This document shows positions 23,454 to 27,396 of a stretch of DNA of 64,000 bases, one piece after another; position 1 is the first letter of the stretch, and each line of letters starts with the position of its first letter. Both the position numbers and the translations under genes were made by a program. Below the pieces are notes generated by a model. The model saw only the letters and a program-made list of their open reading frames with translations, was not told the origin of the DNA and ran no database searches. The stretch is from Gordonia pseudamarae. GTDB lineage: Bacteria > Actinomycetota > Actinomycetes > Mycobacteriales > Mycobacteriaceae. The DNA lies in contig NZ_CP045809.1 of the NCBI RefSeq assembly GCF_025273675.1, positions 2,976,001-3,040,000 of the forward strand. The letters run 5' to 3'.

Positions 23454-24123
23454 CCGCACCCGCCCACGCAACAACCCCGACCCCATCACCTGGACCAGCT
23501 ACGTAGAAGACTGATCACCTTCCCGCGTCGTCGATTTCGTCCCGCTGATCAAATGTCGCGATATCCAATTCGCAGGACGAAGTTCACGACGCGGGAACAC
23601 ACGGTCTACGAAACTTCCGTTCAGGCAGGGCACACTGGGCAGATGACCTCGCCACAGTCGCGGCTGCGCGTTGTCGCCGCCCAGCCACACGTTGCCGATC
23701 TCGCGTCGACGGTGCGGGCACACGCACACGTCATCGACGTAGCTACACCGGATCTGGTTGTCTTTCCGGAACTCTCATTGACCGGGTACCGCTACGATGC
23801 GTTAGCCCTCTCGCCGGATCATGATGCCGACGCGCTGGAACCGATCGTGTCCGCGTGCGCCCGAACCGACGGTGTCGCGATCGTCGGGGCACCGGTGACT
23901 TATCAAGGAGCGAAAGCAATCGCGATGCTGAGGATTGACGCCACGGGCACCTCGATTGCCCACATCAAGTCCGCTCTGGGCGGTGTCGAATCCGCGCACT
24001 TCACCCCCGGTGCAGGACCATCTGTCATCGATGTCAAAGGTTGGCGGGTCGGGTTGGCGATCTGCAAGGAGAATCTCAATGAAGTTGTCAAGCCCCAGAG
24101 GGGGTGAGAATCGGAGGGTGTTG

Positions 24124-25338
24124 TCAGGCGGCCGCGCCGTGGACGTGGGTTGCGGAATCGGTTGTGGTGTAGGGCTTCTGGTCGCGGAGCATGGCCCATT
24201 GAACGTTGAGACGACGGCGTGCGAGCGCGATGACTGCTTGCACGTGTGTCTTGCCCTCGCGGCGTTTGCGTTGGTAGTAGACCTGCGAGACGGGATCGCG
24301 GTGTACTGCAACCTGCGCGGAGAGATAACAGGAACGCAGCAGTCGGCGGCTGTAGTGCCGCGGCCGGTGCAGGTTGCCGCTGATCCGGCCGGAGTCGCGG
24401 GGAACTGGTGCCAGGCCCGCGACGCCAGCGAGGCGGTCGACGGTGCCGAAGACGGTCATGTCGCCGCCGGTGGCGGCGAGGAACTCTGCGGCCAGGATGG
24501 TCCCGAAGCCGGGCATGCTGGTCAGGATTTCGGCGTGCGGGTGGCGGCGAAATCGGTCCTCGATCAGCGCTTCGGTGTCGCTGATTTCGCTGTTGAGGGT
24601 CATCACCTCCTTGGCCAACCGAGCCACGATCTGCGCGGCGACCTGCTGACCGCGGACCGTGACGTGCTGCTGATGCGCCGCGTCCATGGCGGTCTGCGCG
24701 ACCGCGGCTGCATTGCGCACCTTGCGGTTACGCAACCAGGCCTCCAGTCGTGCGTGGCCCATACGGCGAATCGAATCGGGGGTCTGGTAGCCGGTCAACA
24801 AGGTCAACCCGGCCTTGGAACTGCTGTAGTCGATGGCTCGCTCGAGCGCAGGGAAGAACTCCAGCAAGGTGGCGCGCATCCGGTTGATTGCACGGGTGCG
24901 GTCGGCGACCAGGTCTGCCCGGCGGGCGGTCAGGATCCTGAGGTCGACCGCGATGTCGTCACCCGGGCGCAGGGGTTGCAGGTCGCGGCGCATCCGCGCC
25001 TGATCGGCGATGACTGCCGCATCCTTAGCGTCGGACTTACCGTCACCTCGGTAGCCCTTCGATGCGTGGTGCACGGTCCTGCCGGGCAGATAAAGCAGCC
25101 TCTGTTGCGCGTCGATCAGCAAAGCGATCAGCAGTGCCCCGCCGCCGGCGTTGAGGTCCATCGCCCAGGTGACCTCGCCACCGGCGGCAATGTCGCCGAC
25201 CGTGGCGATCAGGTCAGTCAAGGCGGGTTCGTCGTTGTCGATCCGCCGCGACAAAAGTTGCTCCCCATCGGTATCGATTACAACGCAGTGATGCGCGGTC
25301 TTACCGGCGTCGACACCGGCCCATACTTGTCTCGCCAT
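24124..25338 (-). CDS. IS110-family recombinase/transposase
   Basis: 404-residue DEDD recombinase. The N-terminal RuvC-like domain has D10 (GVDAGK), E55 (GGEVTW) and the pair D103/D106 (DGKSDAKDA). A coiled middle section is followed by the Transposase_20 domain from about residue 270 (SMPGFGTILAAEFLAATGG, FGTVDRLAGVAGLAPVPRDSG), whose Ser in the PRDSG stretch is the expected strand-joining serine. Start ATG at 25338, with GGAGG about 9 bases upstream. The frame is intact, so the element may be active. Confidence 0.95.
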   Translation of the reverse strand: MARQVWAGVDAGKTAHHCVVIDTDGEQLLSRRIDNDEPALTDLIATVGDIAAGGEVTWAMDLNAGGGALLIALLIDAQQRLLYLPGRTVHHASKGYRGDGKSDAKDAAVIADQARMRRDLQPLRPGDDIAVDLRILTARRADLVADRTRAINRMRATLLEFFPALERAIDYSSSKAGLTLLTGYQTPDSIRRMGHARLEAWLRNRKVRNAAAVAQTAMDAAHQQHVTVRGQQVAAQIVARLAKEVMTLNSEISDTEALIEDRFRRHPHAEILTSMPGFGTILAAEFLAATGGDMTVFGTVDRLAGVAGLAPVPRDSGRISGNLHRPRHYSRRLLRSCYLSAQVAVHRDPVSQVYYQRKRREGKTHVQAVIALARRRLNVQWAMLRDQKPYTTTDSATHVHGAAA

Positions 25339-25583
25339 TCGTGCCTACCTCCGGAGTCGTTGGTGAACAGTAGGAATCCCTGCAGACGACATCCCCGGCG
25401 TGTCCTTACACAGCGATCGCATCGCGTCTCTCAATCAGCGGTCGAGTCGTCGCAGGACACCGGGCGGCCATTCTCCTTCAGCTGTACCCACCAGCAACAC
25501 GATGACAGCCATACCCGGAGCCCCAGGGCAACTCACAGCCTACGAAACCACAGGTCTCCGGTCACCCCATCTAGAAAGGTAAG
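25339..25583 (-). ncRNA. Bridge RNA region of the IS110 element
   Basis: Non-coding 5' end of the element. Two stem-loops can be drawn on the minus strand. Target loop: arms at 25508-25518 and 25460-25468; inside, 25500-25506 reads GTCATCG and pairs with the right flank CGGTGAC (25587-25593, one U-G pair), and 25472-25478 reads AAGGAGA and equals the plus-strand left flank plus core (24066-24072). Donor loop: arms at 25446-25456 and 25379-25390; inside, 25429-25435 reads ATTGAGA, identical to the element end at 24074-24080, and 25403-25409 reads GTAAGGA, complementary to the core plus other element end (25579-25585). Each left guide leaves one base before the core unpaired; each right guide includes the core. 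The exact RNA ends are unknown. Confidence 0.75.
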
Positions 25584-25876
25584 GACCGGTGACGACGTGT
25601 ATACCCACTCGCTGGCGGTCGCCGAAATCGACGTGTACGCGTGCGGCGTCGTCCACCACGAGCACGAACTCGACGAGCAAGAACGTCGTGCACGAGCAAT
25701 CGCAGCCGAATGCGGCGTACCGGTGGTGATGGCGAGCTTCGCCGGAGCCACAGGTGAGGGCTACTCGGTGACGGCGGGCCGGTCCGCTGTCTGGTCCCGT
25801 ACGGGGACGCCGCCGGCCCGCGCGAGCGCCGAACCCGACGCCTACGCGGTCAGTGTTCTCACCCGACCGGTCCAGC

Positions 25877-26161
25877 TCACGTAGCCACTCTTACAGACGC
25901 CAAGCCACCCCTGAAAGTGGCGGCATCCGGGTCAAACGCCACTCGCCTTCTGGCACGCGCCCGCACCGACGGATCGAGAAGTGCGTCCGTTCTCGCGAAC
26001 CCTCCGTCCGCTGTCATGTCCGCGAGTTCGTCCTGTTTGAGCCGACGGTCGAGTTCCCTGAGCGCCCGATCGACAATCGCTCGCGTGGACAGTCCCTCAC
26101 CCAAGCGCGAACGTATGCTCTCGATCAGTTCGTCGTCGACATCATCGCTGGTACACCTCAT
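25877..26161 (-). CDS. Solitary VapB-type antitoxin
   Basis: 94-residue protein resembling VapB antitoxins of the DUF2191 type: short strand near the start, then DDELIESIRSRLGEGLSTRAIVDRALRELDRRL, a ribbon-helix-helix arrangement. The C-terminal half is rich in R, A and D. No PIN toxin follows; the next sequence is the convergent nitrilase remnant, whose end it overlaps by 8 bases. It starts 21 bases after the fic gene with a good GGAGG, so the two are probably co-transcribed. It could be an orphan antitoxin or a partner of the Fic protein. Confidence 0.65.
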   Translation of the reverse strand: MRCTSDDVDDELIESIRSRLGEGLSTRAIVDRALRELDRRLKQDELADMTADGGFARTDALLDPSVRARARRRVAFDPDAATFRGGLASVRVAT

Positions 26162-26182: not shown

Positions 26183-27388
26183 TCAGCTCAGGCGACGAGC
26201 GGCGCGGTCCGCGAAAGCGTCGAGTGCGTCGGTGACTTCCTTGACGTGCCACATCCGGTTGCGGTTGAAACCGGTGAACTCGCGCAAGATTCCGGCCTCG
26301 ACGAGCGGTTGTACGGTGCGGCCGACATTGCCGATGTTGATTCCCAATTCGGCTGCGACGGTGTCCGAATCGATGACCGGCCGGCGTAGCAGCACGTCAA
26401 GCAGTCGCCGCGATGCCGAGCCCTGCCGCGATGGCAACCGCGCCGCCCACGAGTCCGCCACGCCACGGAGATCGGCAACCAGGAGGCGACCGTTGCCGAC
26501 AGCCACCTGCGCAGCCCCGGCGACGGCGCTGACGATGGGCGTGACGTCGCCGTGCCGGTACGCATCCAAGGCATCGAAGTAGCGTTGCGTGTTCTGCAGT
26601 AGCCCGGCAGAGACTGGAACGGTCACGTTCGTGGTGAGGCCGTAGTGGCGCATCATCGACTGGATCAGCGCGCGCCCGGTGCGTCCGTTGCCATCGGGAA
26701 ACGGGTGGATGGCTTCGAACTGCGCGTGGGCGACGGCGATGAGGATCAGCGGGGCCACATCGGTCCGCCGGGCGAAGGCCACGAGGTCACCGACGAGTCC
26801 GGGGACCGATTCTGCCTGCGGCGCCACGAAATCGGCATCGTGCGGTCCGATGCTTGTGCCGCCGATCCACACCGCATCCGATCGCCACCGCCCCGCGATG
26901 TCAGGGTCCTGATCTTCCATGAGCGCATGGTGCATGGCCAGGATCGCGTCACCGTCAAGCCTGTCGGCCAGGCCGATCGCGGCGCGCATCGCCGCCACAG
27001 TGCCGACGACGGCGGTGGCGTTGCGCTTGTCCCGGCTTCCCAGTTCGGCCAGCGCGATCTGCTTGGCACCCGACGACAGATTCTCGATCTGCGAGGACGA
27101 TGCCGACTCCGACCGCAGCAGGATCGAGGAGAACGGTGCGACCTCGTCGCCCAGATCGGCGTCGAACCGGGACACCATTGCCGACGCTTCGAGGGCCGCC
27201 GCGACGATGTCCGGAGCAACGACGGGCACCTTGTCGGCAATCGGCGGTACGACCGCCGCCCGATACGGTCCGCGGTAGCGCTCGCGCTGCGCACGGGTCA
27301 GGAGATCGCGCGGGATTGTCGGCCGCCACTCGACCTCGGCCCAGGTCACCGTCGGCCAGGGTGAAAGATCACCGGTAAGTGAGGACAT
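26183..27388 (-). CDS. Fic-family protein (AMPylase type) with N-terminal inhibitory helix
   Basis: 401-residue Fic protein that probably transfers AMP to protein hydroxyls. The Fic core motif is HPFPDGNGRTGR, with His at about 208. An inhibitory helix motif of the form S-xxx-E-N (S98, E102, N103 in SSSQIENL) lies N-terminal to the core, making it a self-inhibited class II Fic. The last about 90 residues look like a winged helix (SDTVAAELGINIGNVGRTVQPLVEAGIL), suggesting DNA binding and autoregulation. Start ATG at 27388; an in-frame TTG lies one codon upstream. Repeats at 27397-27451 lie directly upstream. Confidence 0.88.
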   Translation of the reverse strand: MSSLTGDLSPWPTVTWAEVEWRPTIPRDLLTRAQRERYRGPYRAAVVPPIADKVPVVAPDIVAAALEASAMVSRFDADLGDEVAPFSSILLRSESASSSQIENLSSGAKQIALAELGSRDKRNATAVVGTVAAMRAAIGLADRLDGDAILAMHHALMEDQDPDIAGRWRSDAVWIGGTSIGPHDADFVAPQAESVPGLVGDLVAFARRTDVAPLILIAVAHAQFEAIHPFPDGNGRTGRALIQSMMRHYGLTTNVTVPVSAGLLQNTQRYFDALDAYRHGDVTPIVSAVAGAAQVAVGNGRLLVADLRGVADSWAARLPSRQGSASRRLLDVLLRRPVIDSDTVAAELGINIGNVGRTVQPLVEAGILREFTGFNRNRMWHVKEVTDALDAFADRAARRLS

Positions 27389-27396
27389 CAATCCAC

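Follow-up and report, generated by a model that had tools for sequence, protein, structure and literature searches.

A predicted bridge RNA in an IS110-group element of Gordonia pseudamarae has target guides that spell a ribosome-binding site and start codon, with a gap between the target halves that may vary

IS621 inserts in REP elements, and an older target consensus of IS900 of Mycobacterium avium subsp. paratuberculosis includes a variable spacer of 4-6. IS900 reportedly targets translation-initiation signals, to go by the title of a 1997 study by Doran. In excerpts of the published work, a bridge RNA is predicted in 85.7% of IS110-group elements (PMC11208160), and the RNA of IS621 lies in the left end, with its target loop before its donor loop (PMC11208160), its left guide pairing with the bottom strand and its right guide, which includes the core, with the top strand (PMC11208160, PMC11208158), and with handshake nucleotides (PMC11208158). 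All of these features recur in the element described here, in a window (the whole stretch of DNA analysed, 64,000 nucleotides of the G. pseudamarae contig NZ_CP045809.1). However, the same excerpts give IS621 a CT core and a contiguous left guide of 9 nt (PMC11208158), whereas here the core is TC and the right guide comprises 5 nt plus the core; furthermore, unlike IS621, the window element appears to target a Shine-Dalgarno sequence plus start codon, with a loose left register. IS900, which we compared by its published description, is closer in this respect: its target motif, CATGNNNNNNTCTCCTT, shares the right half and carries a start-codon left half some distance away, and it has an antisense frame ('hed') and a similar length, 1451 bp (PMC8141618, in the part of that paper available to us). 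The window element also has in common with the seekRNAs of IS1111/IS110 elements that an RNA from a noncoding region would choose the target (PMC11187229, in excerpt); IS1111 elements differ from it in carrying the RNA in the right end (PMC11208160, likewise in excerpt). The parts of the element and its target, by position in the window, are as follows.

24071 to 25585, minus strand: IS110-group element of 1515 nt, counting the TC core at each end; six identical genomic copies with ends at the same base
24124 to 25338, minus strand: transposase/recombinase of 404 aa, with PF01548 and PF02371; PDB matches ISCro4 9t56 and IS621 8wt6
24066 to 24072, plus strand: right half of the target plus core copy, AAGGAGA on the gene strand (Shine-Dalgarno-like)
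25584 to 25593, plus strand: left half of the target plus core copy, GACCGGTGAC, in register -1 relative to the guide
25339 to 25585, minus strand: left end with the bridge RNA region; upstream region conserved in homologues, 34-pair consensus with covariation
25454 to 25524, minus strand: target-binding loop, in which an outer stem encloses the left guide, a hairpin and the right guide; consensus helices 1 and 2
25496 to 25506, minus strand: left target guide region GTCATCGTGTT, which reads the context of a start codon (CGATGAC, of which GTCATCG is the reverse complement)
25481 to 25495, minus strand: hairpin between the two target guides; two consensus pairs kept in 14 of 15 sequences
25472 to 25478, minus strand: right target guide AAGGAGA including core guide GA, which reads the Shine-Dalgarno sequence; 5-nt match to the right flank in 41 of 53 copies
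25470 to 25471, minus strand: target-loop handshake nucleotides AT, complementary to the AT that precedes the core in the donor; complementarity at donor -1 in 24 of 28 distinct elements
25385 to 25451, minus strand: donor-binding loop, consensus helices 3 and 4
25429 to 25435, minus strand: left donor guide ATTGAGA; donor-end 7-mer present in the RNA of 36 of 38 elements
25403 to 25409, minus strand: GTAAGGA, the right donor guide with the core guide; covaries in homologues with the start of the element, a match that also served to locate that start
24086 to 24091, minus strand: TTGACA in the right end, found in 38 of 38 elements; putative -35 box of a promoter that would exist only once the ends are joined in a circle
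25576 to 25581, minus strand: TACCTT in the left end, putative -10 box of the junction promoter

The recombinase matched DEDD_Tnp_IS110 (PF01548, 164.1 bits) and Transposase_20 (PF02371, 64.7 bits), which places the element in the IS110 group, and two related solved structures were found, those of ISCro4 (9t56) and IS621 (8wt6). Homology to the IS621 recombinase is in the C-terminal part, and S316 aligned with the serine of the IS621 SG motif; D10, D61, D103, D106, S316 and G317 were invariant among nine aligned sequences, the query included, with position 61 being D. The architecture is that of a long left end (247 nt) and a short right end (about 50 nt), with the core dinucleotide at both. 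The host genome carries six sequence-identical copies at six sites (L001 to L006, L001 being the window copy). Another genome of the genus (G007) encodes a transposase identical to a protein named for Gordonia humi. The flanks of L001, AAGGA-GA (24066-24072) and GA-CCGGTGAC (25584 onward), are those given in an earlier note on this DNA, and when joined, they yield a single open frame across the interrupted nitrilase-type gene, the part of which before the element contains a CN_hydrolase domain.

That note had claimed a bridge RNA with four guide segments, and all four are present on the minus strand where it placed them: ATTGAGA (25429-25435), GTAAGGA (25403-25409), GTCATCG (25500-25506) and AAGGAGA (25472-25478). 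Along the transposase strand, the left target guide GTCATCGTGTT comes first, followed by the hairpin, AAGGAGA plus AT, ATTGAGA and GTAAGGA. Because a MAFFT alignment of the 153 upstream regions contained too many gaps (517 columns), motif anchors took its place. In an alignment of 15 chosen homologues (A1), a two-loop structure was conserved, with the 34 consensus pairs formed in 97.3% of cases and changes on both sides in 8 consensus pairs, compared with a shuffled mean of 4.1. When the pairing partners were slid by 1 to 3 columns, only 28 to 57% of the pairs formed, a control biased towards the structure, which had been derived from this very alignment. Folding of the RNA region as a single sequence gave no gain in stability over shuffles (z -0.19), and an Rfam search of this region matched no family. 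The note had named two findings that would count against it, namely a lack of conserved structure in homologues and identical loops at unrelated flanks; the structure is common to the homologues, with compensatory changes in the stems, and all six own copies have fitting flanks.

The guides were compared with flanks and donor ends across 153 homologous rows, 85 of which, our own six copies included, gave a left end and both target guides; the other 68 were dropped because anchors or ends were missing, several of them appearing by eye to fit but remaining uncounted. A right flank was available for 53 of the 85 retained rows and lacking for 32. The 5-nt right guide matched the right flank perfectly in 41 of these 53 copies, representing 22 guide-plus-core types, versus 0.2% when guides were set against flanks of other types (foreign pairings), the homologues being mutually related, with some flanks near-copies, and the shuffles ignoring kinship. 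Matching pairs included AAGGA/tcctt, TAGGA/tccta, AGGAG/ctcct, CTACT/agtag and CAGGT/acctg; G629 is a counterexample, its CACAT facing atgaa, atcgc and agctg. For the left guide, a seed fit (at least 5 of 6 positions, wobble pairs included, at distances anywhere from 0 to 7) was found in 69 of 85 rows, compared with 22% of foreign pairings. Left guides track left flanks across types, for example TCAAGCA, ACAAGTG and GATCGCC: the guide runs up to the core as TCAAGCA-TC three times in G629, as ACAAGTG-GC four times in one Streptomyces plasmid (three of them with near-identical right flanks) and, read by eye, as GATGGTTC-TC in L168.

On the donor side, guide and element start change together (GTAAGGA/TCCTTAC, ATAAGGA/TCCTTAT, GTATGGA/TCCATAC, GTAGGGA/TCCCTAC and GTAGGAC/GTCCTAC); agreement between the two was a selection criterion of our script, and only the variety of these pairs counts as evidence. 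The donor-end 7-mer was found in the RNA of 36 of 38 elements, just 7 of which also match at -1. The target-loop handshake was complementary to donor position -1 in 24 of the 28 distinct elements (P = 0.0003 by permutation) and to position -2 in all 28, the latter being invariant; the donor-loop handshake was weaker, with target -1 complementary in 31 of 85 rows (P = 0.08) and target -2 in 42 of 85 (0 of 10,000 shuffles). The covariation of guides and flanks that the earlier note proposed to look for is thus present: right guides vary with flanks across the 22 right-guide-plus-core types, and the guides vary with the donor ends as well. Pairing and joint change of guides with both target and donor across homologues are what is expected of an IS110 bridge RNA, and together with the conserved structure, they indicate that the left end of the window element encodes one. 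We therefore regard the earlier observation as confirmed at the level of sequence comparison. Its claim of a new natural bridge RNA with a native target stands as to the native targets, which are known; the RNA is new only as a member of the IS110 bridge-RNA class. What we add concerns what the target guide appears to spell and how loosely its left half may be read.

Two groups of homologues may be recorded here. G109, the genome of one relative, contains ten copies (L110, L118 and L178 to L187) of three related IS110 types with 43 to 48% identity to the window recombinase; several have right flanks that begin CGGCC or CTTTC after the core and therefore have different targets. A Streptomyces branch (L202, L193, L203, L196, L015 and L019) has the left guide TCAACC or TCAAG and the right guide CTACT, and its insertion sites are of the AGTAG type and are not start codons by the open reading frame (ORF) rule given below.

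The flanks of the six own copies, written as left flank, core and right flank, are as follows.

L001 (window): gtcgtcaccgg-TC-tccttgc
L002: gttcatcggggtg-TC-tccttgt
L003: ggtcatcgtg-TC-tcctccg
L004: ggctgcatcgca-TC-tccttgc
L005: tggtcatcgga-TC-tccttga
L006: cttcatcgttgt-TC-tcctttt

The right half occupies a fixed position at all six sites; the left half is also present at all six, but its distance from the core varies from -1 to +3. According to the earlier note, left guides end one base before the core is reached. This is true of the donor guide, as the small number of matches at -1 illustrates, but the target guide directly abuts the core in L003, L004 and L005 and in relatives (GTCATCGTG-T in the window element); the guide of the window copy looks one base short because its site is shifted by -1. 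The contiguous guide CATCGTG-T matches L003 and L004 at 7 of 7 positions and L005 at 6 of 7 with wobbles, and L001 fits it only after the -1 shift. L002 is ambiguous, since a reading in register is also possible with 4 of 7 matches; its empty site was not found in relatives, the only matches besides the own genome being short partial ones in 10 of 58 genomes. For L006, with a +2 site, nine loci of relatives were compared, six of which cover the junction: two same-genus genomes (L286 and L288) carry the uninterrupted site with identical sequence and spacing, and the other four have diverged there. The +2 shift of L006 therefore predates the insertion.

Read on the strand opposite the transposase, the target is a Shine-Dalgarno sequence plus start codon, and four of the six own copies lie exactly between the two. 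The empty sites read AAGGAGA-CACCCCG-ATG (L002), GAGGAGA-CACG-ATG (L003), AAGGAGA-TCCG-ATG (L005) and AAGGAGA-ACAACG-ATG (L006), and the genes displaced there match AMP-binding, ABC transporter, LapA-domain and solute-binding families. L001 lies inside the nitrilase-type gene and L004 inside an alpha/beta hydrolase gene, both at look-alike sequences and not at start codons. Sites were scored automatically as start-codon sites if an ORF of 80 codons or more began 3 to 7 nt away, a rule by which L004 was counted spuriously, and guides were classed as CAT type if CAT occurred close to where the left guide begins. A start codon stood beside the site in 25 of 31 cases with CAT-type guides, 3 of 54 with other guides and 23 of 156 background TCTCCT sites (Fisher P below 1e-11); without the own six copies, the CAT-type count was 20 of 25. 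The target of the IS900 subgroup, TCTCCTT with a start-codon half at translation-initiation signals, was thereby found in four of the six own copies and in 25 of the 31 CAT-type cases. These data suggest that the element tends to insert just before genes, its target-reading guides spelling the ribosome-binding site and the start codon. When the Shine-Dalgarno type, as defined by its guides, was mapped onto a quick tree of the transposases (56 rows), 6 changes were required, 5 of them forced by well-supported branches; the type is therefore either old, with losses, or repeatedly gained, and it is found with cores TC, GT and GC.

The gap between the two target halves may vary. Two or more left flanks were available for 17 guide types, giving 50 sites: 35 in register, 7 shifted and 8 that fitted no register. 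Shifted sites made up 6 of 17 with CAT-type guides versus 1 of 33 with other guides, that one being weak (Fisher P = 0.004); when sites fitting no register were left out, the contrast was weaker (6 of 17 versus 1 of 25, P = 0.012). One guide type common to four mycobacterial elements occurs in registers -1, 0, 0 and +1, and three sites of G739 have three different lengths. The exact register nevertheless appears to be preferred, accounting for 3 of 6 insertions versus 8 of 100 candidate sites among the matches listed (P = 0.009).

One explanation, which we consider rather likely, is that this is a lineage with a generalist guide, in which the bridge RNA would encode the host's Shine-Dalgarno sequence and start codon as a two-part target with a variable gap, so that no fixed register is needed across the whole target; in several branches, the guides would have been rephased as the core changed (TC, GT or GC), keeping the target. 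Alternatively, slack in the register may be general to IS110 recombinases and not an adaptation of this lineage, becoming visible here since pairs of Shine-Dalgarno sequence and start codon abound in genomes at variable spacing, whereas other guides would meet shifted sites by chance alone. We regard this as a serious possibility, a little short of even odds. The own genome is indeed rich in shifted sites, with 121 matches to CAYCGN{1,6}TCTCCT versus 10 to the reversed pattern, as expected of a translation signal, and the scarcity of shifts with other guides (1 of 33) is what would be seen where shifted sites are scarce; the contiguous 9-nt left guide in the IS621 structure, as excerpts of PMC11208158 describe it, argues against a general slack.

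Far less probable is a choice of site by the right guide and core (TCTCCTT) with hardly any contribution from the left guide, in which case start codons would lie nearby simply since Shine-Dalgarno sequences precede them. The right half is in one register in all copies read, with perfect 5-nt matches in the 41 of 53 copies, and 23 of 156 background TCTCCT sites have a start codon nearby in any case; these points would fit. However, CA(T/C)CG stands 1 to 5 nt before TC-TCCT at all six insertions, compared with 6 of 165 background TCTCCT sites in 400 kb of the own genome, and left guides go with left flanks across types (TCAAGCA, ACAAGTG and GATCGCC). It is more doubtful still that the ribosome, the mRNA or the transposase protein steers the element to initiation sites, with the RNA match as a by-product: four of the six own copies do lie between a Shine-Dalgarno sequence and a start codon, as do most sites in relatives whose guides are of this kind, but the other two own copies are at look-alikes inside genes, and relatives that carry other guides insert into other sequences (at start codons in 3 of 54 cases), using transposases of that same family. 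Seven-base matches are individually weak evidence, but chance similarity within GC-rich DNA is refuted by the six copies, the 22 right-guide-plus-core types and the covarying stems.

We thus consider it highly probable, from the sequences compared, that this is an IS110 bridge RNA aimed at translation-initiation sites or their look-alikes, with its left half read with slack. Excision to a circle would join the TTGACA of the right end to the TACCTT of the left end, creating a promoter for the RNA. At the circle junction, TTGACA would stand 17 nt before TACCTT; TTGACA is present in all 38 full-length elements compared, and TAnnnT follows at 17 nt in 35 of 38, so that the boxes are consistent with a circular form. 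Each loop would then pair around the dinucleotide TC, the donor loop at the circle junction and the target loop at its target site, and strand exchange would fall to the recombinase, as homology to IS621 suggests. The target loop would be aimed at no unique locus: a Shine-Dalgarno sequence is spelled by its right guide, and a start codon with its surrounding bases is complementary to its left guide. Insertion would occur between Shine-Dalgarno sequence and start codon, or at look-alikes, with the transposase divergent from the gene. In the left half, the start-codon part could lie one nucleotide nearer to the core, or up to 3 further from it, than the guide spells, with the exact register preferred; the tolerated shift would lie within the natural variation of Shine-Dalgarno spacing.

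On this account, a bridge RNA would explain the targeting of translation-initiation signals by IS900, and decades-old observations of IS900-type insertion at such signals would be tied to a specific RNA and its guides. It would also represent a natural route to a host-portable guide, namely, to aim at a signal that every host has. If the slack is real, off-target searches for bridge-RNA recombinases must allow gaps in the left half and not mismatches alone. We found no paper mentioning both IS900 and bridge RNA among the openly licensed papers searched; none of the matches listed from those papers combined bridge RNA, IS110 and Shine-Dalgarno, and one review mentions bridge RNA, IS110 and start codon together. 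The available text of the seekRNA work (PMC11187229) contains neither 'IS900' nor 'spacing' and has 'start codon' once, in connection with transposase annotation.

The left end of the element reads GAAAGGTAAGGA on the gene strand (25574-25585), which is Shine-Dalgarno-like and would directly precede the displaced start codon. A Shine-Dalgarno swap by this sequence was considered as a special adaptation and rejected, since anti-Shine-Dalgarno pairing of the left ends is the same with and without start-codon guides (mean of -6.55 kcal/mol for 10 distinct ends versus -6.45 kcal/mol for 21 others).

An antisense, hed-like ORF (24079-25884, plus strand) starts from an ATG in the right end of the element, 6 nt behind the host AAGGAGA, and is open through the element; such openness is expected because the frame is codon-aligned antisense to the transposase. 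From the right-end ATG, the frame extends over at least 479 codons in 7 of the 9 elements nearest to that of the window and over at least 410 codons in 5 of the other 29, being closed earlier or without an ATG in 24 of these 29. The hed-like ORF was therefore rejected as a conserved feature of the IS900 subgroup, since it is not conserved beyond the nearest relatives.

Near the interrupted nitrilase-type gene, a 402-aa ORF (26183-27391, minus strand) contains the motif HPFPDGNGRTGR, which we take to be Fic-like, and is followed downstream on the same strand by a 94-aa ORF (25877-26161, minus strand); the two are possible Fic-type neighbours of that gene.
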